A model generated the notes under the pieces. That model had not been told where the DNA came from and ran no database searches. It saw only the letters and a program-made list of their open reading frames with translations. A program made the translations under genes and the position numbers. From Plantactinospora mayteni (GTDB lineage Bacteria > Actinomycetota > Actinomycetes > Mycobacteriales > Micromonosporaceae), in NCBI RefSeq assembly GCF_016862935.1, contig NZ_BONX01000075.1, positions 1-42,156 of the forward strand: 42,156 bases of DNA, in the 5' to 3' direction. Numbering within the stretch: the stretch's first letter is position 1; each line of letters opens with the position of its first letter. Below, one piece after another: positions 217 through 13,318 of this stretch.

Positions 217-1593
217 TCAGCGCGTGTGGTTGGGCCGGTTCCAGGTGCCTCTGACCGGTGGACGTACCGGCCGGGTACGCGGCATCACGGTCGCCGGGGT
301 GACGCCGGGCGGGACCGGTCGTGGGGGTACTGACCGCGGCGGATCCGGGACGACGCCGGCGGCCCGGATCGGCGGCCGTGTCGAGCGGGGAGTGGTTGGT
401 GCGGCGCGTTTCGGCACGGTGCTCGTGTAGGGGTCGACGCCGGCGGCGAGTTCGTCGCGGGTGTAGGGGCGGACGGTGCGGCCGGTCGGGTAGCCAATGC
501 CGGCGCGGCCGGGACCCGCACCCGACGGCGGCGGCAGTGGTCGGGGCGTGAAACCGCCAGGGCGAGGTTGGCCACCGCCTCCGCCACCCGAATGCACCGG
601 CCACGGCCGGTTCACTCCGCCGGCACCGGCCGCGCCAGCACGGCCGGCGGCCCGCGCGGCGTTTCGGCCGCCGCTGAACGCGCGGGAGATCCCTCTGGTC
701 AACTGCTGTACCAACACGACGCGCAGGATCATCCCCATCGGGTTCGGCGGGGTGCGGGTGATGTAACGGCTCATCAGCCCGGGGATCTTCACGACGCCCC
801 ACAGCAGGCACACCACGATCAACAGATTCATGACCGCGGCCGGCTCACCGCCGGGTACCGGCAGGCCGAGCACCAGCAGATTGCTGTCGGGAGCGAGGAA
901 GACCCTCAGCGTGGTGTGCAGCGCAACCGCCTGCAGGGCCACCGTGCCGAGCGTGCCGAGGATCGCCCGCCACCACAGCTTGGCGGCACCCTCGGTCTGC
1001 GGGGTTCCGTGCAACGCCAGGGCGATCGGTGAGATGCCGACGGCGATGACGAGGAACCCGAGCCGGATGATCCACTGCACCAGGAGGGCGCCGGTGAGTA
1101 CCGCGATCAGCAGGCCGATGAGCAATAGCAGGAAGCCGATCGCGGTCGCACCGGTCTGGCCGCCCAACGCGCTGACCGTGGTGTTCCGCAGATGCTGCAT
1201 CGAGCCGGGCGCGGTGATGTCCTGGCTGGTCAACGCGGCGGTCAACGCGTTGGCCAGCCCGATGACGGTGGAACAGATCGGGATGGCGAAGTTGGCGGCG
1301 ATCAGGCCGATGACCAGGCGAGGGATCAACTCGCCTGGCCCGACCTGTGACTGGATGGTGTCGCGTCCCATCACCAGGACGGCCGCCCACAGGAACGCCA
1401 ACACGTAGCAGACGTTCACGATGTGAAGCGAAGTGCTGGCGAACGCGGTGACCTGCGGCAGAGTAGTCACGTCCGGGCTGACGAACGCGGTGACCGACAA
1501 CAGTTCCCACAGAGCGTTCAACACACCGATCACCGTTTCGGCGAACCACTGAAGGATGGGGCCGATGATCTGATCGGCGAACCGGTCACCCAC
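217..1593 (-). CDS. TrbL/VirB6-like polytopic conjugal transfer protein
   Basis: The protein is 458 residues. The first ~280 carry about six or seven hydrophobic segments (roughly residues 15-35, 55-76, 88-115, 150-195, 215-235, 250-272). The last ~130 are Pro/Gly/Arg-rich and probably cytoplasmic. This layout, and the position directly after a pilin-like gene, fits the TrbL/VirB6-like inner-membrane channel proteins of actinobacterial conjugative elements. The GTG start at 1593 is chosen because it overlaps the last base of the upstream TAG stop; the open frame continues upstream only as Arg/Pro-rich antisense-type sequence. Role: inferred membrane platform of a type IV secretion-like transfer apparatus. 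The family call rests on topology and context. Confidence 0.72.
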   Translation of the reverse strand: MGDRFADQIIGPILQWFAETVIGVLNALWELLSVTAFVSPDVTTLPQVTAFASTSLHIVNVCYVLAFLWAAVLVMGRDTIQSQVGPGELIPRLVIGLIAANFAIPICSTVIGLANALTAALTSQDITAPGSMQHLRNTTVSALGGQTGATAIGFLLLLIGLLIAVLTGALLVQWIIRLGFLVIAVGISPIALALHGTPQTEGAAKLWWRAILGTLGTVALQAVALHTTLRVFLAPDSNLLVLGLPVPGGEPAAVMNLLIVVCLLWGVVKIPGLMSRYITRTPPNPMGMILRVVLVQQLTRGISRAFSGGRNAARAAGRAGAAGAGGVNRPWPVHSGGGGGGQPRPGGFTPRPLPPPSGAGPGRAGIGYPTGRTVRPYTRDELAAGVDPYTSTVPKRAAPTTPRSTRPPIRAAGVVPDPPRSVPPRPVPPGVTPATVMPRTRPVRPPVRGTWNRPNHTR

Positions 1594-1934
1594 TACTCCG
1601 CCCCGATCCAGCCCTGTACGACCGCGAGCAGGATCGGCGCGAGAACTGCCAGGGCGTACCCGAGCAGCGCGTTCTTGAAGGCCGAGTTGGACTTCTCGAT
1701 CTCGGTCGGGTCGCCGCCAGCGGCCAGACGACGCAGGCCACCGATGGTCAGGAACAAAGTCGCGACCCCGACCAGCAGCCCGACAATCCAGGCCGTGATG
1801 TTTTCGATGATCCGGGGCAGCGGGTACGCAGCCAGGATCTGCGGCTCGGCCGCGTACGCCGGGGCCGAGCCGGCCACGGCCGCGAGGACCGTGACCGTGA
1901 TGGTGAGGATGCGGTAGACGTTGCGGCGGAACAT
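1593..1934 (-). CDS. VirB2/TrbC-like pilin with signal peptide
   Basis: This 113-residue protein has a signal peptide (MFRRNVYRILTITVTVLAAV...) with a likely cleavage site after AYA near residue 27. Two hydrophobic helices follow (about 40-62 and 84-105), separated by a short polar stretch (RRLAAGGDPTEIEKSN). This is the size and topology of the T4SS pilin-like families of Gram-positive conjugative elements. The ATG at 1934 follows a strong ribosome site (GGGAGG). Its stop overlaps the start of the TrbL-like gene by one base, so the two are probably translationally coupled and work in one transfer complex. Confidence 0.75.
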   Translation of the reverse strand: MFRRNVYRILTITVTVLAAVAGSAPAYAAEPQILAAYPLPRIIENITAWIVGLLVGVATLFLTIGGLRRLAAGGDPTEIEKSNSAFKNALLGYALAVLAPILLAVVQGWIGAE

Positions 1935-1942
1935 GGCGGGGA

Positions 1943-1964: not shown

Positions 1965-2061
1965 TCGATTGGGGTTGAGGTGCGCCACCAGGAATCGGGG
2001 CAGGGGCCGTGGGAGCGTCGCTCCTTCCAGCCATGAGGTGATCGGGTGCGAACACGGCCAC

Positions 2062-2319
2062 TCAGGCCGGCCGCGCCCCGATCCCCGGGGCGCCGACACC
2101 GGCCGCTTCTCGGTCCGATGTCTTGCCCACGAAGGCCCACTGTTGGGTGGCCAACACGACGTCCGCCGCCACACCCGAACCCAACAGCGACCCAACACCA
2201 CGTCGCTGTTGGGCCGGCGCCATCCGTTGTTGGGTCGCCGCGACCAGATGTTGAGTCGCGCCGTCGGCAGAAGCGACGTGCTCTCGCGCAGCCGCCATGT
2301 GCTGTTGGCCCGCAGTCAC
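2062..2319 (-). CDS. Small Gln/Ala-rich repeat protein coupled to sigma-like gene
   Basis: An 85-residue frame starts at GTG 2319, overlapping the TGA of the sigma-like gene by two bases (GTGA). Its first half consists of imperfect repeats around VAATQQR (AGQQHMAAAREHV, ATQHLVAATQQRM, APAQQRR), continuing the repeats at the C-terminus of the preceding protein (HQRVAATRQRVAAIQQR). These repeats are the coding readout of the CCAACAG motif family. The second half has no clear pattern. It could be a real coiled-coil-like protein. It could also be the tail of the sigma-like protein separated by a stop, or a repeat array that happens to be open. Confidence 0.4.
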   Translation of the reverse strand: MTAGQQHMAAAREHVASADGATQHLVAATQQRMAPAQQRRGVGSLLGSGVAADVVLATQQWAFVGKTSDREAAGVGAPGIGARPA

Positions 2320-2387
2320 CGCTGTTGGATCGCGGCGACGCGTTGCCGAGTCGCGGCGACTCGCTGGTGGGTCGCGTCACCGCTGCG
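2141..2387. repeat. Repeat cluster 1: TGTTGGGTCGC / CCAACAGCG array
   Basis: At least eight copies or variants of TGTTGGGTCGC and its complement lie here (2141, 2151, 2180, 2191, 2207, 2228, 2249 variant, 2303, 2323, 2369 variant). Two form inverted repeats: TGTTGG-gtgg-CCAACA (2141-2156), and a perfect 12-bp pair CCCAACAGCGAC (2180-2191) with GTCGCTGTTGGG (2202-2213) around a 10-base loop. The array spans the end of the sigma-like gene and most of the small downstream ORF. Confidence 0.8.
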
Positions 2388-3134
2388 GCGTTTGCGGGGC
2401 CGCAACGACACGAACGTGAGGTCGCCCTCGCGGATGGCTTCCCGAAGCCGACGTTCGGCCTTCAGACGCCATGACGAGGCCAGGCTGGAGGTGATGCCGA
2501 GACCGGCTGCGGCCTGCGCGAGGGTGCTGTTGTCGAGGCGGGTGGCGGCGATCAGGTTCGCCTCGTCGGCGTCCAGCACACCGACCGCGACGGCACGGGC
2601 CAGCACCAGGTCAGGGTGGTCCCACGGGTGGATCGGCGCGATCGGGTCGGGCGCGTCGGTGTGGATCAGCTGCGTGTCGGAATCGGCGTCCCGGGCCTTA
2701 CGCGCGGCACGCAAGCCGGCATCGATCAGCCGGCCACAGATCCGAGCCGGCTCCAAGTCGATGGTCTTGAGACGCGCCACAAACCCGACCAGCAGTTCGG
2801 CGTCCAGATCGCTGGTGTCGCCCCGCCATCCCGCAGCGAGCGCACCGGCAACGTGACGCAGACCCGGCATCGCGATGCCCACCGCGGCAACAACCCACGC
2901 CGGGCCGTCCCGGCGAGCGCGGATGACCAACTCACGCCACACGGCATCCCGCACCTCAACACCGGTCTGCGGCGACAACAAAAGTGCTCGTAGCCGCTCC
3001 AACGGCAGGATGTCATCCGGCAGACCCTCGAAGCCGCGGCCATCGAACCCGACGTGCGTGGGCGGCTGAACCAGGAGCATGAAGGCACGTTCGGCCGCGG
3101 CCAGCGGCGAGGACGGCCAGGATCGAGCAGACAT
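2316..3134 (-). CDS. Sigma-factor-like (region 4) regulatory protein
   Basis: The 272-residue protein has a C-terminal sigma-70 region-4-like helix-turn-helix (about residues 195-245; LAQAAAGLGITSS followed by RLKAERRLREAI). No clear region 2 is visible, so it resembles the sigma-factor-like proteins of actinobacterial integrative elements rather than a full sigma factor. The ATG at 3134 is preferred over an in-frame start ten codons upstream because GTGAGG precedes it. The last ~25 residues are a basic, Gln-rich repeat tail (HQRVAATRQRVAAIQQR). It is divergent from the methyltransferase-like gene across an 890-bp motif-rich spacer and may regulate both. DNA binding is inferred from the HTH. 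Confidence 0.68.
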   Translation of the reverse strand: MSARSWPSSPLAAAERAFMLLVQPPTHVGFDGRGFEGLPDDILPLERLRALLLSPQTGVEVRDAVWRELVIRARRDGPAWVVAAVGIAMPGLRHVAGALAAGWRGDTSDLDAELLVGFVARLKTIDLEPARICGRLIDAGLRAARKARDADSDTQLIHTDAPDPIAPIHPWDHPDLVLARAVAVGVLDADEANLIAATRLDNSTLAQAAAGLGITSSLASSWRLKAERRLREAIREGDLTFVSLRPRKRRSGDATHQRVAATRQRVAAIQQR

Positions 3135-4024
3135 GTCAACCTCACGAGGCGATCGGCACCGCACCTCACAACGGCGCTAGACCCCTATCCGCACACGTCG
3201 ACCCAACGGTCCATGAACGTGCGAACCTGCGCCGGGAGCTGTTGGGCCTGCTCAATAGCCATGCCCGCCCAACAACCAACAGCGGGCCGCAGATGTCGTC
3301 AACGACCCAGGCGAAGGCCAACACCACAGCTCACCGGCCTGTTGGGTACCGTTGCCTCAGGAGATCAGCACGAGGCTGGTATTCGTACCGCGGCAACCCG
3401 CGCGACCACGAGGTACCCGCGCAGGAAGCGCCCAGCAAGCACTGAATTAGGCGCATAGCCCCACCTGCCGCCACCCCGGCCAGCTCTGCACCAGGCTCAG
3501 GCACATGGTCATGTGGGGGCGCATCCGGCCTGGTCACGACCGCGCCGGCAGCTGGCATCGTCGCGATCATCATTCCGCCGGCCCCGCCCACAGGACTCCT
3601 GCCGGCGGCCCGGCTCACGGACGTCCTCGTGCCGGTATCCGTGCTCGACCTGGTCTGGTCGCCAACTGAGGGCAACTGCCCGCAGCAACGCGAGAACTGG
3701 ACGCGCCGGCGCCGAAGCCGTTGGCGAGGTCAAGAACCGCGCCCTCGACGCCCCGCCTCGTCAACCAGGCCCACCAACAAGTGGCCGTCTCGACGAGGGC
3801 GGCGTGAGCGCCCACCACGTGCACTGGCTGTTGGCTACCCAACAGCCAGACACGCAAAGCCGTTGGGTTGACGATGATCAACTGTTGGATAAGGCCACCC
3901 AACAGACGGCGCACGCTGTTGGGTGCTGTTAGGTACCGGCACGCGAGAGACCGCGCTGTGAGCCGGCATCCCGGGGCCATTCGTAGATGCGAACACGGTC
4001 AACCAGCGCGGGAGCCACCCGCAC
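3135..4024. other. Divergent intergenic spacer with motif copies; no convincing gene
   Basis: About 890 bases separate the divergent sigma-like and methyltransferase-like genes. Several open frames exist on both strands, but they have Arg/Pro-biased composition, no ribosome sites and no recognisable domain, so none is called. TGTTGGGT-family copies occur at 3201, 3240, 3268, 3277, 3319 and 3340, and densely at 3826-3937. The spacer therefore looks regulatory. Confidence 0.6.
3826..3937. repeat. Repeat cluster 2 upstream of the methyltransferase-like gene
   Basis: In 112 bases there are seven motif copies: a 9-bp inverted repeat GGCTGTTGG (3826-3834) / CCAACAGCC (3839-3847), then CGTTGGGTTG (3861), CTGTTGGAT (3882), CCCAACAG (3898), TGTTGGGT (3917) and TGTTAGGTACC (3927). 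The cluster ends about 90 bases before the next start codon. Such density and mixed orientation suggest an array of protein-binding sites. Confidence 0.75.
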
Positions 4025-5158
4025 ATGACTGCTCTGCCGAACTCCGTCCCCGCCGACATGCCCCGCCCGAACCCATTCATCGCTGCACCGAACATCCACG
4101 GCGACGCGATCCTCGTCGGCGGCGACGTACCCATCGCCGTCTGGCGACTCGACGACCGCGACGACGACGCATCCACCACCGACCCCAACGCCCGCCTCGC
4201 GTCGCGGCTGGCCCAGCGACTCATCCTCGTGTACACCCGGCGCGGCGACGCGGTCATCGACTTCGACAGCGACACACATCTGCAAACCGCCAGCGCCAAC
4301 ACGTTCCGCTCCTACCTGCCCATCACCGAACCCGGCGACGTCGCGGACCTGAACTCGCTCGCTGAACCCGTCAGCCTCGTCGTCCTACGGTGGCCCCCGC
4401 AGCACACCGACCGAACGCGGGCCAGCATCGCCGACCTGTTCGGCGCATGCCGACTAATCATGACGGCCGACACCTGCGCAATCGCGGCCATCAGCTCCGC
4501 AGCACCCGACCAACCCGGAACCACATACGCCGAGCACCTGAACGAACTCCTGCCAGCTGCCCGCGCCGCGGGCCTCACACACGTCCTGCAAATCGTCGCG
4601 GTCACCGGACCAGGCAACGGCGACCAGTTCGTGTACTACGCCACCCGCGCCGAAGCCGAGGCAGCACGACAGGATCGACCGACCGGTCACCGCGACCAGA
4701 GCTTCCACGTCGACCTGATGGTCTTTACCGCCCCGGGAGTCGCGACGGCTGAATCCAACCCAACTCCGGCCGATCGCGACCCACAGCGACTCACGAGACA
4801 ACGCCACGACAATTCCCGCGACGTGACCCGAATCGCGGAAATCGATGTCGCCACACGATCGACCGACGACGGTGAGTCAAGCTACGGTGCCGCCGCACCA
4901 ACAAGCCCTACCAGCCGAAACGACCGTAACGAATCCCAATCCGAGGTACGCGCTGAAAGGACGCCCAATCCATGCCCGCCCTACCCACGCTCCACAGCGA
5001 GTCGCTCCCACAGCCTGGTCCCTCCGACACCGCAGGCCGGCGATGAACGCGCCGACCGCCCCCGAATGGCGGCCCGACCCCCTGCTCACCATCGACGATG
5101 TCGCCACCTGGCTGGGCAAGCCGAAGAACACCCTCTACGCCTGGCACAGCCGAGGTAA
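4025..5158 (+). CDS. Methyltransferase-like protein with degenerate motifs
   Basis: This frame encodes up to 377 residues. Residues ~55-200 resemble the order of a beta-class DNA N4/N6 methyltransferase: GDAVIDFDSDT sits where motif I (DPFxGxGT-like) would be, and SLVVLRWPPQ sits where motif IV (SPPY/DPPY) would be. Further alternating helices and strands follow, with LPAARAAGLTHVLQIVAV near residues 180-197. The catalytic (D/N/S)PP(Y/F) is replaced by WPP, so methylation is doubtful and a DNA- or nucleotide-binding role is possible. The Arg/Pro-rich end (after ~300) overlaps the leader ORF and xis in another frame, so the natural C-terminus may lie earlier and a late frameshift is possible. 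The first ATG is used; no strong ribosome site is seen. Confidence 0.55.
   Translation: MTALPNSVPADMPRPNPFIAAPNIHGDAILVGGDVPIAVWRLDDRDDDASTTDPNARLASRLAQRLILVYTRRGDAVIDFDSDTHLQTASANTFRSYLPITEPGDVADLNSLAEPVSLVVLRWPPQHTDRTRASIADLFGACRLIMTADTCAIAAISSAAPDQPGTTYAEHLNELLPAARAAGLTHVLQIVAVTGPGNGDQFVYYATRAEAEAARQDRPTGHRDQSFHVDLMVFTAPGVATAESNPTPADRDPQRLTRQRHDNSRDVTRIAEIDVATRSTDDGESSYGAAAPTSPTSRNDRNESQSEVRAERTPNPCPPYPRSTASRSHSLVPPTPQAGDERADRPRMAARPPAHHRRCRHLAGQAEEHPLRLAQPR
4972..5046 (+). CDS. 24-codon leader ORF overlapping the xis start
   Basis: An ATG at 4972 is preceded by GAAAGGA at 4955-4961 with a 10-base spacer, the best ribosome site in this stretch. It encodes MPALPTLHSESLPQPGPSDT plus AGRR and stops at TGA 5044-5046, overlapping the xis ATG (5043-5045) as ATGA. 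The xis start itself has no good ribosome site, so xis translation may depend on this leader. No function is implied for the peptide. Confidence 0.5.
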   Translation: MPALPTLHSESLPQPGPSDTAGRR

Positions 5159-5252
5159 AGGACCACGCGCCATCCGGGTCGGGAACACCCTGCGCTACCG
5201 GCGCAGCGAGGTCGAACTCTGGCTCGACAACCACACCGACCCGGAGCGATGA
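5043..5252 (+). CDS. Excisionase / MerR-type helix-turn-helix protein
   Basis: The 69-residue protein is a winged-helix excisionase-type HTH (HTH_17 family): LLTIDDVATWLGKPKNTLY, the conserved turn and wing GKGPRAIRVGNTLRYRRSEV, then a final helix. Such proteins sit directly upstream of the integrase in actinobacterial elements and direct excision. The same layout is seen here, with only three bases to the integrase remnant. The ATG at 5043 overlaps the stop of a short leader ORF. Because the integrase is broken, it has no functional partner in this element, though it might still act as a DNA-binding regulator. Confidence 0.82.
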   Translation: MNAPTAPEWRPDPLLTIDDVATWLGKPKNTLYAWHSRGKGPRAIRVGNTLRYRRSEVELWLDNHTDPER

Positions 5253-5255
5253 ACC

Positions 5256-5743
5256 ATGGCCCGACCTCCACTGCCCATCGGCACATTGGGCACTATCCGC
5301 ACCGAGAAGCTCGGCCCCAATCGGCATTGCGCCCGAGCCCGATATCGCGACCACGACGGCAGAACCCGCGACGTCGAGGCCACCGACACCACCGCTCCCG
5401 CTGCCGTTCGGGCGCTCAAGGTCAAAGTCCGCGACCGCGTGGCACCTGGCTGTCACCGCAGAACGTGCGCCGCCAGTGGCGGCAAGCACGCGCCGACGCC
5501 GGCCTCGAATGGGTCACCCCGCACACCTTCCGCAAGACCGTCGCCACCCTCATCGACAAGGAGGCTGACGCCAAGAGCGCCGCAGCCCAGCTCGGGCACG
5601 CTACCGAGCAGGTCACAAACAAGCACTACATCGTTAAGCCCGCACTCGCCCCGGACAGCTCCGGCATCCTCGAACAGCTCGGCGGTGGCCTGCCGACAAC
5701 TGAGCCCACCCGCCGCGACCACGACCCACGCCAGACCGGATAG
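5256..5743 (+). pseudogene. Tyrosine recombinase (integrase) with internal deletion and frameshift
   Basis: Residues 1-~60 (MARPPLPIGTLGTI..., ending ALKVKVRDR) match the N-terminal arm domain of actinobacterial element integrases. From about 5438 a different frame encodes the genuine C-terminus (RGTWLSPQNVRRQW, then TPHTFRKTVATLID, AAQLGHATEQVT, KHYI) with the HxxR, LGH and catalytic Tyr motifs. About 200 or more residues expected between the two parts are missing, including the first catalytic Arg. The joint lies near 5432-5440. The protein cannot be an active integrase, so the element is probably immobile by its own means. Confidence 0.85.
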
Positions 5744-5855
5744 GCGCGCGGGGACGGCAGCCGGCAACGCCGGCGGGAAGGTCATAATCCGATCGCCCCA
5801 GGGTATTGTTGGGGGGTTTTCGGGGGGGCGAATCAAAATCGCATAGATAAACGTC

Positions 5856-5890
5856 GAGGCCCTGACTGGCTTTCTGCTGGTCAGGGCCTC
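5856..5890. terminator. Strong hairpin beside the att remnant
   Basis: An 11-bp perfect stem, GAGGCCCTGAC (5856-5866) with GTCAGGGCCTC (5880-5890), has a 13-base loop. It lies immediately 3' of the tRNA-end fragment (minus orientation), where a tRNA terminator would sit. It also lies 112 bp after the integrase remnant and may stop transcription from that side. Confidence 0.65.
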
Positions 5891-5894
5891 ATGC

Positions 5895-5925
5895 TGGTGC
5901 CCCGGCAGGATTCGAACCTGCGACA
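5895..5925 (-). other. att remnant: tRNA 3'-end fragment without tRNA body
   Basis: Read on the minus strand this is a T-stem/loop (GCAGG-TTCGAAT-CCTGC) followed by CGGGGCACCA, i.e. the 3' end of a tRNA with a CA/CCA end. No D- or anticodon arm lies on its 5' side (5926 onward is protein-coding). It therefore fits an attachment-site copy left by integration of the neighbouring element. The isotype cannot be told from the fragment. The tRNA-Pro at 13,245 is a different sequence and is not its partner. Confidence 0.7.
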
Positions 5926-6182
5926 AGGCGGGCGATTCGCTGGTCATCACCGAAACGGTCCGGTTTAACTCGGTCAAGCCGGCCGCGGCCCGGCCGCGCA
6001 ACTCCCTGGATGTAGATCCTGGTGTGCTGCGAAGCGTCTGCACGCAGCTCGGCTTCCACCCGGATGACGGCGAACGGGTCAGCGATCTTGCGGCGGTGGC
6101 GGTGGCTCGGATGGCATGGCGAGATGGCCCGGTCGAGGATTGGCATTCGGTCCGGTTTCGACGCATCAGCGATGGGAGATGA
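5926..6182 (+). pseudogene. 5'-truncated gene of unknown function
   Basis: A coding frame runs from the att boundary to TGA at 6180-6182 (…GDSLVITETVRFNSVKPAAA… GVLRSVCTQLGFHPDD… LAAVAVARMAWRDG … VRFRRISDGR). It has ordinary protein composition and no convincing start after the boundary. The 5' end was probably lost when the att site was formed. Its stop overlaps the next gene's ATG (ATGA), so the two were one operon. No family recognised. A start at the in-frame GTG in GVLRSV would give a shorter protein. Confidence 0.5.
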
Positions 6183-6811
6183 TGCGCGCCAACGCGGCTG
6201 CCACTCGGCTGGTCCGCAGCGTCCTCCGCGATCAGCAGTCGTACCTGTACGCAGGCAGCGATCCGTTCAGGAGGGTCTTCCAGACGCTGGCGGATCCGGA
6301 CCGAATGCTTCCGGACGGGCGACGGCTGATCGATCTTGCACCGGACGCAGTGGAACTCACCAGACTCCGGACGCACGTCGAGCTGTGCTGTTCGGCGTGG
6401 GCCGACAGCGCAGCCGTCAGAGGTTTAGGTAAGATCCTCCTGCTTCTCGCCTGCCGTGGCGCGGCCTTGAACTGGCGCTGGTGGCTGTCGACTGGGTGGC
6501 CGCAGTTGGTCGAGACCTTCGTCCGTCGGATCGATGACCCGACGCTGTGGCGAAATCCCTGGGAGATTAACAATCGCCGCAGAATAGGAGATCCTCCCGA
6601 CGGGCTGACCGGCACAAACCTACGTCAGCTCCTCCTGGCTGGACCGGACCAGCTCACCGCAACCGCTGCTGCCTACTACTTAAAGGCGGGTCTGTCCGCG
6701 CTACCTCCTCAGGACTGCGGTCTGCCCCCGGCGCGACGACGCCTGCTACCGGCCGGCTACCTCGGCCTGGTGGAGGAACCTTCCGGCGATCCGACGCTGA
6801 TCACGGGCTGA
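6179..6811 (+). CDS. Unknown protein, coupled to the truncated gene
   Basis: The 210-residue protein begins MMRANAAATRLVRSVLRDQQ. It is mostly helical by composition, with one moderately hydrophobic stretch (GLGKILLLLACRGAALNWRW, about residues 81-100) and Trp-rich segments (WRNPWEINNRRR). No signal peptide, catalytic motif or family is recognised. The start at 6179 is chosen because its ATG overlaps the upstream TGA; a second ATG follows at once. A hairpin at 6845-6877 ends the unit. Together with the truncated partner it is a two-gene operon of unknown role next to an element boundary. Confidence 0.6.
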   Translation: MMRANAAATRLVRSVLRDQQSYLYAGSDPFRRVFQTLADPDRMLPDGRRLIDLAPDAVELTRLRTHVELCCSAWADSAAVRGLGKILLLLACRGAALNWRWWLSTGWPQLVETFVRRIDDPTLWRNPWEINNRRRIGDPPDGLTGTNLRQLLLAGPDQLTATAAAYYLKAGLSALPPQDCGLPPARRRLLPAGYLGLVEEPSGDPTLITG

Positions 6812-6844
6812 CGTGGCGCAATCCCGAGTACCCAACAGCGCAAT

Positions 6845-6877
6845 CCGGGCCTCTCCCACAGAATGGGGAGGGCCCGG
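6845..6877 (+). terminator. GC-rich hairpin terminator
   Basis: CCGGGCC(T)CTCCC (6845-6857) pairs with GGGAGGGCCCGG (6866-6877), with one bulged T and an 8-base loop. It lies 34 bp after the stop of the unknown gene. There is no U-tract, as is common in high-GC actinobacteria. Confidence 0.6.
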
Positions 6878-7474
6878 AGTCATTAGCCGGCACCGCCCTG
6901 TCGGGTTTTCCCTGAGGCCATCCGTGGTGTCCGACGGGTAGTGTCGTGGCCTGGCCGGTGGGCAGGTTGCCGTCAATGGTGACCAGGGTGGCGCCTGCGG
7001 GGCGACAAGGTATGCAGGCGCGGAGACCTTTCGTTCGGGCAGCAAACCTCTGCCGTGGCGGTCACAGTCGTGGCCGCGTTGGGTAGCCCTGCGGGATGAG
7101 TTGGGTAGACCCTGCGAAGTTGTTGGGCAACCGACTGTGTAATCCGCCTGGCTGTTGGGCGGTTGTTGGGTACCCAACTCCTTCTGACCGTGGCATCGAC
7201 GCTGGTCCGCGAGCCTTTTTGTGGGCGTGAAGACGAACTCGGTAGTGCCAGACCGGCGCACACGCACCACGCCGTACCGCAAGCTGATCGCGCTGCAAAG
7301 CGCGGCGGCATTGATCACACTGGCCAGACGGTCGGTGAGCATCGCCGGTGATATCGGCGACGACCAAGGCCGTCATGATCCCCCGATCAACTCGCGTAGT
7401 GGGCAGTTTGCTCCGATAGCTCCGCCCCGCTCCACGTACCAGGATCGGCGCCCGGTGCCGACGCCACAGGGTAC
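6878..7474. other. Intergenic stretch with motif cluster and possible gene relic
   Basis: No clear gene lies here. On the minus strand, about 7,200-7,376 contains protein-like sequence split over two frames (TALVVADITGDA in one; LASVINAAALCSAISLRYG and TTEFVFTPTKR in the other). This would fit a small frameshifted relic that runs out into the motif cluster at 7,079-7,178. I do not recognise a family. The stretch precedes the first recombinase and may hold its promoter. Confidence 0.35.
7079..7178. repeat. Repeat cluster 3 with a perfect 14-bp palindrome
   Basis: TTGGGTA occurs at 7079 and 7101, TGTTGGGC at 7121 and 7153, and a perfect palindrome GTTGGGTACCCAAC at 7165-7178. A further copy, TACCCAACAGCG, is at 6829-6840. 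The palindrome joins two half-sites tail to tail, the arrangement expected of an operator bound by a dimer. Confidence 0.75.
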
Positions 7475-8434
7475 GTGGCCATGAACCGGGATCCCACCAC
7501 GCTGGCGACGGGTCTGCCGCTAGCGTGGGCGACGTTCCTCACCGACTGGGATCGGACGCTGCGGTCGGGGAACTACCCGTCGACGACGCGCTACAACTAC
7601 CTCCTCGCCGTTGCGCAGTTGGGCCGGTACCTCGCCGACGACAGCCAACGGGACGCGGGGGAGGCAGCAGGCACGCCGACGGCCGTGACTCGGCGGCACG
7701 TCGAGGACTTCCAAGCGTGGATGATCACGACCCGGTCGCCGGCCACCGCGCTGAACAAGCACAAGGCCTTGCAGCAGTTCTTCAAGTGGCTCACGGTCGA
7801 CGAGGAGGAAATGGACCAGTCACCCATGCTGCGGGTGCGGCAACCCAAGACACCGAAGCGCCTCATCCCGATCATCCGGGATGAGGACACCAAGAAGCTG
7901 CTCGACACGTGCAAAGGCAAGGACTTCGTACACGTCCGCGACGAGGCGATCATCCGGCTGCTGTCCAACACCGGAGCGCGGCTGTCCGAGGTGGCGAAGG
8001 TGGACACCGACGATGTCGACCTGTCGCTCGATACAGTGCGCTACCACGGCAAGGGCGCCAAGGACCGACGGGTTCGGCTCGGGCCAAAGACCGCCCGGGC
8101 GGTCAGCCGCTACCTGCGCGCCCGCCGCGGTCACAAGGGCTTCGGGCTGCCCGACCTGTGGCTGGCGGTACGTGGCGCGCGGCCGCTGACCGCCAACGGC
8201 ATCAAGCTCATGCTCAAACGGCGGGGTCTGCGCGCCGGGGTCGATGGCGTGCACGCCCACCGCTGGCGGCACACCTACGCACACGAATGGAAGCTGGCCG
8301 GAGGAGACACCGGCGATTTGATGCTGGTGCTCGGCTGGACGTCCGAGGACATGCCGCGTCACTACGGCGCCAGCGCTGCCGCCGAGCGGGCCCAGGAGGT
8401 GCAAGCCCGGATGGGAATCGGTGAACGTGTCTGA
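7475..8434 (+). CDS. Tyrosine recombinase 1
   Basis: The 319-residue protein has an N-terminal core-binding domain (about 15-125; YPSTTRYNYLLAV, LNKHKALQQFFKW) and a catalytic domain (about 135-310). Catalytic positions are visible: Arg in NTGARLSE, Lys in HGKGAKDRR, HxxR in HRWRHTYAHEW, Trp in the LGW position that is His in XerD, and Tyr in MPRHYG. It is a close paralogue of the recombinase at 12,172-13,131. The start could be this ATG or the Met two codons later (MNRD). A small gene overlaps its 3' end. Role: site-specific integration or rearrangement; the target site is not known. Confidence 0.88.
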   Translation: MAMNRDPTTLATGLPLAWATFLTDWDRTLRSGNYPSTTRYNYLLAVAQLGRYLADDSQRDAGEAAGTPTAVTRRHVEDFQAWMITTRSPATALNKHKALQQFFKWLTVDEEEMDQSPMLRVRQPKTPKRLIPIIRDEDTKKLLDTCKGKDFVHVRDEAIIRLLSNTGARLSEVAKVDTDDVDLSLDTVRYHGKGAKDRRVRLGPKTARAVSRYLRARRGHKGFGLPDLWLAVRGARPLTANGIKLMLKRRGLRAGVDGVHAHRWRHTYAHEWKLAGGDTGDLMLVLGWTSEDMPRHYGASAAAERAQEVQARMGIGERV

Positions 8435-12171: not shown

Positions 12172-13131
12172 CTACACCCGTTCGCCGATACCCAGTCGGG
12201 CTTGGGTTTCCTGTGCCCGTTCGGCGGCGGCGCTGGCGCCGTAGTGGCGGGGCATGTCGTCGGAGGACCAGCCGAGCAGCAACATCAGGTCGCCCGTGTC
12301 GCCACCGGCCCGCTTCCACTCGTGGGCGAAGCTGTGCCGCCACCGGTGGGCGTGCACGTTGGGTACTCCGGCCGCCTTTCCGAGCCGCTTGAGAAGGATC
12401 TTGATGCCGTTGGGAGTCAAGGGGGCCACGCCGCGGGCGGCCAGCCACAGGTTCGGCAGTGCGGCGCCCTTGTGCTTGTCCCGGGCCCGCAGGTAGCGGC
12501 TCAGCGCCCGGGCGGTCTTGGGACCGAAGCGGACCCGCCGGTCCTTGGCGCCCTTGCCGTGGAAGTGCACCGATTCGGTGTTCAGGTCCAGGTCGGCCAC
12601 AAGGAGGTTGCCGACCTCGGAGAGGCGGGCTCCGGTGTTGCAGTACAGCCGGATCAGCGCCTCGTCGCGCAGGTTGGCGAACCCCTTGCCCTTGCACGCG
12701 TCGAGGAGCTTGCCGGTGTCCTCGTCGCGCATGACCGGGATCAGCTTGCGTGGTGTCTTCGGCTGCCGGACCCGTTCCATCGGTGAGCGGTCGATGACCT
12801 GCTCGTCGACCAGCAGCCACTTGAAGAACTGCTGCAGTCCCTTGTGCTTGTTCAACGCGGTCGAGGCGGACCTGGTTTCGATCATCCAGCCCTGGAACGC
12901 CTCCACGTGCGCCCGGGTCACCCCGCACGGATCGGCGGCGGCCTCCTCGGCGTCCGGATCTGGGGAGTGCTCCCCTAGGTAGCGGCCAAGCTGGGCGGCG
13001 GCAAGGAGGTAGTTGTAGCGGGTGGTCTGCGGGTAGTTCCCGGCGCGCAGTGACCGGTCCCAGTCTCGCAGGAACCCGGCCCAGCCGTTCGAGAGGCCGG
13101 TGGTGAGTTTGGAGAGATCGAGGTGTGGCAT
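12172..13131 (-). CDS. Tyrosine recombinase 2 (paralogue of recombinase 1)
   Basis: This 319-residue protein shares length and most motifs with recombinase 1. The core-binding domain has YPQTTRYNYLLAA and LNKHKGLQQFFKW. The catalytic residues lie in NTGARLSE (Arg), HGKGAKDRR (Lys), HRWRHSFAHEW (HxxR), LGWSSDD (Trp in place of His) and MPRHYG (Tyr). It is transcribed away from tRNA-Pro, whose terminator lies 65 bp upstream of the start. The ATG at 13131 has a weak AGG. A CCAACAGCG motif copy lies at 13156-13164, 25 bp upstream. It may have integrated an element at this tRNA. No accessory small gene follows it. Confidence 0.88.
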   Translation of the reverse strand: MPHLDLSKLTTGLSNGWAGFLRDWDRSLRAGNYPQTTRYNYLLAAAQLGRYLGEHSPDPDAEEAAADPCGVTRAHVEAFQGWMIETRSASTALNKHKGLQQFFKWLLVDEQVIDRSPMERVRQPKTPRKLIPVMRDEDTGKLLDACKGKGFANLRDEALIRLYCNTGARLSEVGNLLVADLDLNTESVHFHGKGAKDRRVRFGPKTARALSRYLRARDKHKGAALPNLWLAARGVAPLTPNGIKILLKRLGKAAGVPNVHAHRWRHSFAHEWKRAGGDTGDLMLLLGWSSDDMPRHYGASAAAERAQETQARLGIGERV

Positions 13132-13194
13132 GGCAACCTGCCCGAGTCAAGGAGTCCAACAGCGGCGTGCTAGACCGGACATTCATGCCGAGCT

Positions 13195-13239: not shown

Positions 13240-13244
13240 CGCTG

Positions 13245-13318
<74 letters not shown>

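Follow-up and report, generated by a model that had tools for sequence, protein, structure and literature searches.

Near the left end of the 42,156-base stretch of Plantactinospora mayteni DNA analysed here (the window), a short word recurs in both orientations among genes of a mobile element, which raises the question of what these repeats do and which protein reads them. The window is the whole of contig C75, so that the contig boundary truncates the element on the left. The repeats constitute a real, conserved and phased family of probable regulatory sites. Our preferred explanation, to which we assign a probability of roughly 0.6, is that they are the operators of a transfer regulon of an actinobacterial integrative and conjugative element (ICE) with a type IV secretion system (T4SS), and that their likely reader is the 273-residue protein encoded at 2316-3134. 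The reader is probably this sigma-factor-like regulator, encoded amid the arrays, and another protein of the element could also fill this role.

Exact copies of TGTTGGGT, counted on both strands, number ten in the window and all fall within 2141-7171, while 100 dinucleotide shuffles of the window yield a mean of 0.51 and a maximum of three. With ≤1 mismatch, 43 copies are found, 31 of which lie at 2000-7300, bearing out the more than twenty copies in about 5 kb that had been reported in a first-pass annotation of this DNA. Where that annotation saw three clusters there are four groups (arrays A to D, Table 1), and the additional copy that it placed at 13156 is weak, as TGTTGGAC has two mismatches to TGTTGGGT and is absent from the one-mismatch list. 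Across the host genome (9,841,081 bases) there are 73 exact copies, against 70 of a reversed-pattern control, and ten of the 73 are in the window with four more at 9316-9649 of contig C88. The word is thus not enriched genome-wide, and its concentration, rather than an even spread over the chromosome, is the unusual feature. The paired pattern TGTTGGGTN{3,24}TGTTGGG has three matches in the host genome, all on C75 and C88.

Table 1. Repeat arrays and other features of the left part of the window. Sites are given by position and strand.
Feature	Coordinates	Strand	Sites or remarks
Array A	2141..2372		2141(+), 2179(-), 2190(-), 2207(+), 2228(+), 2249(+), 2323(+), 2365(+); ≤1 mismatch
Array B	3201..3347		3201(-), 3240(+), 3267(-), 3274(-), 3340(+); upstream of regulator gene
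Array C	3829..3934		3829(+), 3837(-), 3861(+), 3883(+), 3897(-), 3917(+), 3927(+); upstream of 4025 gene
Array D	6830..7179		6830(-), 7077(+), 7099(+), 7121(+), 7153(+), 7164(+), 7172(-); upstream of 7475 integrase
TrbL-like gene	217..1593	-	follows pilin gene; labeled by position and composition, lacks a Pfam match
T4SS pilin, VirB2-like	1593..1937	-	T4SS_pilin, E-value 9.3e-14
Conserved DNA block	2073..2138	-	adjoins triad; candidate T4SS promoter or origin of transfer (oriT)
Candidate regulator	2316..3134	-	C-terminal sigma-region-4-like domain
Promoter-like stretch of regulator	3179..3208	-	site CGTTGGGT (3201-3208), 11 bp, core GATAGGGGTCT (within 3179-3190)
Open reading frame (ORF) of unknown family	4025..5158	+	precedes recombination genes; true end perhaps ~5042, start of xis-like gene
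Excisionase-like protein	5043..5252	+	HTH_17, E-value 3.5e-11
Integrase-like stretch	5256..5743	+	start aligns at 85% over 64 residues with the G278 integrase
ORF of unknown family	6116..6811	+	relatives adjoin site clusters in G104 and G312
Xer-like tyrosine recombinase	7475..8434	+

Relatives of the 273-residue protein are encoded in 201 of the 354 genomes of the family (Micromonosporaceae) and in 56 of 394 genomes sampled from the class, the host included. Twenty related elements were mapped in stretches of 33-40 kb and a further 40, more distant, in stretches of 12-20 kb. Among the closest relatives, whose regulators are ~65-91% identical, the regulator gene is followed by the T4SS genes in unchanged order, and TGTTGGG arrays occupy the same places, namely the gap between the relative of the 4025 ORF (the 4025-type gene) and the regulator gene, the gap between the regulator and pilin genes, the region from the VirD4 3' end to the Replic_Relax gene, and a region downstream of Replic_Relax. 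The intergenic regions were set from tblastn matches to the window proteins and include 60 bp of the gene ends, while that of C88 was set by hand. Pooled over 17 stretches, the first three of these regions hold 197 copies in 32.3 kb (6.09/kb), compared to 106 copies in 582 kb (0.18/kb) in the remainder of the same stretches. Other stretches of the host's own genome hold 34 copies in 339 kb (0.10/kb), a figure that is biased upward because these stretches were chosen for holding a related word; the four stretches without the exact octamer hold five in 78.6 kb. Site numbers are uneven, with only two clustered sites in G025 and seven each in G321 and G183. The same sites thus stand before several transfer genes and are kept in related elements, as befits the operators of an ICE regulon, and the lack of conservation that would have told against the first-pass annotation is not observed.

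The placement is conserved in detail. In the T4SS region, two tandem sites 11 bp apart are followed, 39 bp on, by an inverted site, and in eight of the thirteen elements listed all three sites of this triad are exact TGTTGGG; a similar two-plus-one layout occurs in the more diverged clade II (the 37-45% group). Array A contains the triad, upstream of the pilin gene, and extends into the 3' end of the regulator gene. The adjoining block at 2073-2138, which ends in a GC-rich inverted repeat, is highly conserved at the DNA level even where the regulator ORF stops short of it, as here. Upstream of Replic_Relax, one site starts 25-26 bp before the start codon in all ten elements listed, which were chosen for having it. 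The 4025-type gene precedes a recombination module that varies between a tyrosine integrase (G304a, G278) and a serine recombinase (G104, G304b, G079).

Further genes are found on C88 (L001), a 13-kb contig encoding PrgI, VirB4, VirD4-like and Replic_Relax proteins (Replic_Relax Pfam E-value: 6.9e-41). The VirD4-like protein matches TrwB_AAD_bind best (E-value: 3.4e-8) and FtsK_SpoIIIE more weakly (E-value: 2.1e-5). C75 and C88 appear to represent the same kind of element, the gene order across the two unjoined contigs being taken from relatives. Another contig, C97 (L002), was disregarded, as its absence of long ORFs points to a probable ribosomal RNA contig.

The 238 clustered sites give the pattern (G)(C)TGTTGGG(T/C), and the refined site reads (G)CTGTTGGG with T (70%) or C (29%) next and ≤0.15 bit at the later positions. 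The trailing A(C)C of the first-pass consensus is unconserved. Distances between sites on the same strand peak at 10-11, 20-21, 31, 42-43, 52-53 and 63 bp, and the pooled phasing is strong at a period of 10.75 bp (R: 0.68; null 99.9th percentile: 0.20), the null consisting of independent uniform distances, which overlapping pairs within one array do not strictly meet. As related elements share ancestry, the pooled counts are not independent, and phasing was therefore repeated per element for 16 of the 17 stretches, G025 being left out and G321 contributing a single distance. It is significant (p < 0.05) in 11 of the 15 stretches with at least two distances and falls short of significance in the C88 stretch (p = 0.07), G292, G183 and G031. 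The host's own array regions, with ≤1 mismatch, provide 44 distances (R: 0.56), a value reached in none of 5000 random sets, and the same-strand spacings of array D are 22, 22, 32 and 11 bp. The sites of the closest group are spaced by whole helical turns, which fits the need of proteins occupying one face of the DNA. Small regulators of the BldC/Xis type bind direct repeats about one helical turn apart cooperatively; the spacing here is alike, but a relative of the Xis-like protein occurs in only two of the 20 related elements first mapped.

The candidate reader has a weak Sigma70_r4 match at its C-terminus (E-value: 0.038), where residues ~165-245 form a domain like the region 4 helix-turn-helix of the sigma-70 family. 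The structure model is poor outside this C-terminal domain (mean predicted local distance difference test score, pLDDT: 48.3). The regulator has no match in plasmid records, and a sequence search of solved structures returned three weak, unrelated matches; a scan of viral contigs gave one relative, which was not used. Upstream of the gene the last site stands in a fixed register, namely an octamer, 11 bp and a core of the form (G/A)AT..GGTCT. This reads CGTTGGGT-N11-GATAGGGGTCT in the window, TGTTCGGT-N11-GATAGAGGTCT in G104, TGTCGGGC-N11-GATGAGGGTCT in G037, TGTCAGGT-N11-AATCGAGGTCT in G290 and TGACAGGT-N11-AATGAGGGTCT in G353. The register pattern, which was fitted to alignments already seen, is present in 23 of 61 upstream regions (ten of the closest group, three of the G037 group and ten of clade II), a few cores being one base longer or shorter; eight further matches look unrelated, and 30 of the 61 regions have none, some of them (e.g. 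G080) showing a variant by eye. The core is constant while the octamer follows the lineage, a behavior that would suit either a -35-like element or an operator lying over a promoter. At the regulator gene the octamer is followed 18 bp later by GTCT, and in the T4SS-region copies that were read, GTC lies 18 bp beyond the second triad site.

The word itself changes with the lineage. De novo motif finding by expectation maximization over the intergenic regions proved too loose, returning mostly GC-rich words outside the closest group, and exact k-mer enrichment over the same regions was therefore adopted. The enriched words are TGTTGGG in the closest group, TGTTGG in G269, G225, G236 and G323, GTTGGGT, accompanied by GGTACCGG- or ACCGGTCC-type words, in the G350 elements, ACCGGTAC in G051 and G342, and, in G332 of the same genus, words of the TGTGA type. 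In clade II, TGTCAG(G) is modestly enriched, with no enrichment in G194; its TGTCAG sites precede the regulator match by ~60-270 bp and recur ahead of the pilin gene in stretches that include the latter. Diverged elements thus carry other motifs in the same regions. A second T4SS element of the same family, with the TGTCAGG-type word, lies on contig C6 (L114) of the same genome: the examined intergenic regions of the C75 element hold 11 TGTTGGG and no TGTCAGG, and those of the C6 element none and three, respectively.

A search of the 354 genomes with the pattern TGTTGGGTN{3,24}TGTTGGG alone, in which the 11-bp pairs and part of the other spacings were followed up, gave at least one match in 72 genomes. 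Pairs spaced by 11 bp were listed at 18 places, all adjoining genes of this element family, and 15 of these have regulator or T4SS genes. The pair at L213 belongs to a degraded element in which fragments of the 4025-type gene, the regulator and TrbL survive, that at L212 adjoins a relative of the 6116 ORF, and that at L211, in keeping with array D, precedes the match to an integrase of 76% identity by ~350 bp, the 20 kb examined there containing no regulator. Of four places with pairs spaced by 12 bp, three were examined (L217-L219) and none has an element gene. An array in G089 (L227, 9401-9557) lies ~230 bp before an Xis-like match, with no regulator relative in the 20 kb examined. Tandem TGTTGGG repeats with periods of 8, 19 and 14-16 bp were also observed in other genomes (L201 1383-1461, L192 1501-1659 and L194 1501-1569, respectively); no gene of the element family was detected in the 3 kb around them, and they are considered unrelated.

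These observations suggest how the regulon may work. The asymmetric word of 7-9 bp, (G)CTGTTGGG(T/C), has a size suited to one protein monomer, and the whole-turn spacing would place several monomers on one face of the DNA, where they may bind cooperatively. The 2316-3134 protein would read the site through its sigma-region-4-like domain, in the way that sigma factors read the -35 element. Arrays lie before the regulator gene, the T4SS genes, the gene preceding the excision and integration module, the Replic_Relax gene and the integrase, so that one protein could switch excision and transfer together, with the activity of the promoters and the direction of control being presumed. As the site nearest the regulator gene adjoins the conserved promoter-like core, the regulator would also control its own expression. 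The first-pass annotation had suggested that a transfer, partition or regulatory protein of the element may recognize the repeats, and it is the regulatory form that is favored by the recurrence before the same transfer genes and by the helical phasing. No parA/parB-type protein was found among the element proteins scanned, which represent part of the element's genes, as holds for all such scans below.

Several results weigh against, or fail to support, operators read by the 2316-3134 protein. Elements G037, G044 and G060 lack TGTTGGG arrays; a related word (TGTCGGG, TGTTGGA or TGTCGGC) precedes the promoter-like core in these, with no array established. Neither the clade II sites nor the GGTACCGG repeats are phased at 10.6 bp, and eleven loci from the class search show no clear motif. 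In G089 and G085, TGTTGGG sites stand by VirD4/Replic_Relax despite a very different regulator relative. The 273-residue protein varies in its putative recognition helix between motif groups, and a helix-turn-helix-like segment of Replic_Relax (a label inferred from sequence) likewise diverges with the motif, so that co-variation alone cannot name the reader.

The strongest alternative, which we nevertheless regard as unlikely, shares the reader with this regulon and differs in mode: the 2316-3134 protein would be a working sigma factor, similar to those of the extracytoplasmic function (ECF) group, its promoter-proximal site would be the -35 element, and the other copies would be auxiliary or decoy sites. 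The region 4-like fold, the fixed register of site and core and the GTCT/GTC at 18 bp are consistent with this, as is a whole-length profile alignment to 30 sigma factors of the host (E-value: 2e-5; probability: 77%). Against the same genome's sigma factors, however, a profile of region 2 alone, the part that in sigma factors binds core RNA polymerase and melts the -10, reaches only an E-value of 0.03 (best of 40 column-shuffled controls: 0.068), and the structure model has too low a confidence there to be informative. Since a Replic_Relax control alignment reaches 0.0046 against the same sigma profile, such weak values mean little; this control lowered our estimate for a working sigma factor slightly. 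The protein is furthermore absent from the 83 Pfam Sigma70_r2 matches of the host genome, the sites occur in both orientations and are antisense before Replic_Relax, and no matching core was found at the 4025-type gene.

Distinctly less probable is the binding of another element protein, most plausibly Replic_Relax, to the repeats, which would then be no promoter operators but would serve replication or DNA processing as iterons or relaxosome sites. The Replic_Relax gene adjoins one array, with a site at a near-constant distance from the start codon in the ten elements chosen for it, its helix-turn-helix-like segment diverges along with the motif, and the G089 and G085 sites would be accommodated. 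However, arrays also stand upstream of the regulator, 4025-type, pilin and integrase genes, and in clade II the TGTCAG sites upstream of the regulator gene are present even at loci whose 20 kb examined yielded neither a T4SS nor a Replic_Relax gene. Replication iterons in the strict sense, direct repeats at one origin by an initiator gene, were rejected given arrays before several genes and in both orientations. Next to the 220-residue gene that lies downstream of Replic_Relax, a conserved CCCAACA reads as the first codons of that gene (VPNT...) and was not counted as an operator.

The first-pass annotation had likened the repeats to the TraB recognition repeats (TRS) of Streptomyces clt loci, and it is very improbable that they are TRS-like sites, or sites like the FtsK-orienting polar sequences (KOPS), for the VirD4-like DNA translocase that lie near promoters by chance. 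Short repeated octamers do recall the TRS of TraB plasmids, which are likewise clustered 8-bp repeats in an actinobacterial conjugative element, and in several clade I elements one array runs into the VirD4-like gene at its 3' end. The TRS differ from the repeats here in sequence, orientation, placement and transfer system, however: the sites occur in both orientations, at several loci and not confined near a traB gene, and in fixed register with a promoter-like core. The translocase best matches the model of the TrwB coupling protein, and instead of single-protein transfer by an FtsK/SpoIIIE-type TraB the proteins scanned include the VirB2-like pilin, PrgI, VirB4 and VirD4-like components. 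With a T4SS in this kind of element and sites at several places, a reading of the repeats as a clt locus is not supported.

Array A within 2316-2372 and the array at the VirD4 3' end on C88 enter gene ends, where they read as short peptide repeats, with an ATQQRVA-like tail in the regulator, of a length that varies between elements. That the repeats are a mere by-product of such coding repeats, often 21 bp apart in the regulator and VirD4 3' ends, or of simple repeat expansion, is contradicted by the intergenic arrays, with many sites outside called genes and in both orientations, and by phasing also at 10-11 and 31-32 bp, spacings not divisible by three, and can practically be dismissed.

Additional features of the window concern the integration of the element. 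The G278 integrase that aligns to the 5256-5743 stretch is a full-length tyrosine integrase, while the stretch itself has no Pfam match. A fragment resembling a tRNA 3' end at 5899-5924 recurs, with one mismatch, only at the very start of host contig C50, and may be a candidate attachment site coinciding with a contig break. The Xer-like tyrosine recombinase at 7475-8434 is ~70% identical to a second one in the opposite orientation at 12172-13131, which adjoins a tRNA-Pro(ggg) gene (13244-13318); between the two lie transposase-like ORFs, labeled by eye. The cargo of the G304a element (L052, from ~10658) includes what we take to be an ArdC-like antirestriction protein.

In its manner of working, the element would resemble an ICE regulon with its own operators, and among the closest known systems is the SetCD regulon of the SXT/R391 ICEs (PMC4344509). 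There, an ICE-encoded regulator reportedly also acts on the transfer genes via its own promoter sites. Unlike SetCD, which is FlhDC-like, the candidate here has a sigma-region-4-like domain, and its sites are asymmetric octamers in phased arrays whose word varies with the lineage. The repressors of Gram-positive conjugation PrgX of pCF10 and Rco of pLS20 are described, in the available sections of PMC6540685, as binding operators at transfer promoters, autoregulating and forming nucleoprotein complexes, all of which are proposed here from sequence. These two, according to the same sections, use operator pairs and looping by tetramers, whereas here many monomer-sized sites stand before several genes, with a sigma-4-like candidate reader. 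The pSAM2-type actinomycete integrative and conjugative elements (AICEs), with Pra/KorSA, are similar in being actinobacterial integrative elements with their own control of int/xis and transfer, but, in the portion of PMC3218068 available, transfer via an FtsK/SpoIIIE-like protein rather than T4SS genes. No Pra/KorSA-type protein was found among the element proteins scanned.

Such arrays, or a sigma-like regulator of actinomycete T4SS elements, are not described in the accessible parts of PMC3218068 and PMC9513070, on actinobacterial ICEs, and of PMC6540685, a review of how Gram-positive conjugation is controlled. A wider search for regulators of such elements, with few subscription papers covered, returned reviews and other ICE families, and the matches listed for the motif string are all unrelated. 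The literature searched offered little about how T4SS-type conjugative elements are controlled in filamentous actinomycetes. A bolder proposal, which is possible but on balance doubtful, is that a degenerate sigma factor has become a switch that binds DNA arrays across widespread actinomycete conjugative elements, with region 4 reading a -35-like octamer as cooperative, phased arrays at transfer promoters. The octamer and recognition helix would have drifted together (TGTTGGG, TGTCAGG, GTTGGGT, TGTGA and ACCGGTAC), such that co-resident elements, two in this host, keep separate regulons. If the reader is sigma-like, sigma region 4 would have been reused as an array-binding regulator. The arrays represent a testable code for the promoters of the transfer programme, the protein that reads them and the avoidance of cross-talk between co-resident elements, and conserved DNA sites of this kind likely mark the switches of mobile-element transfer genes in many soil actinomycetes.

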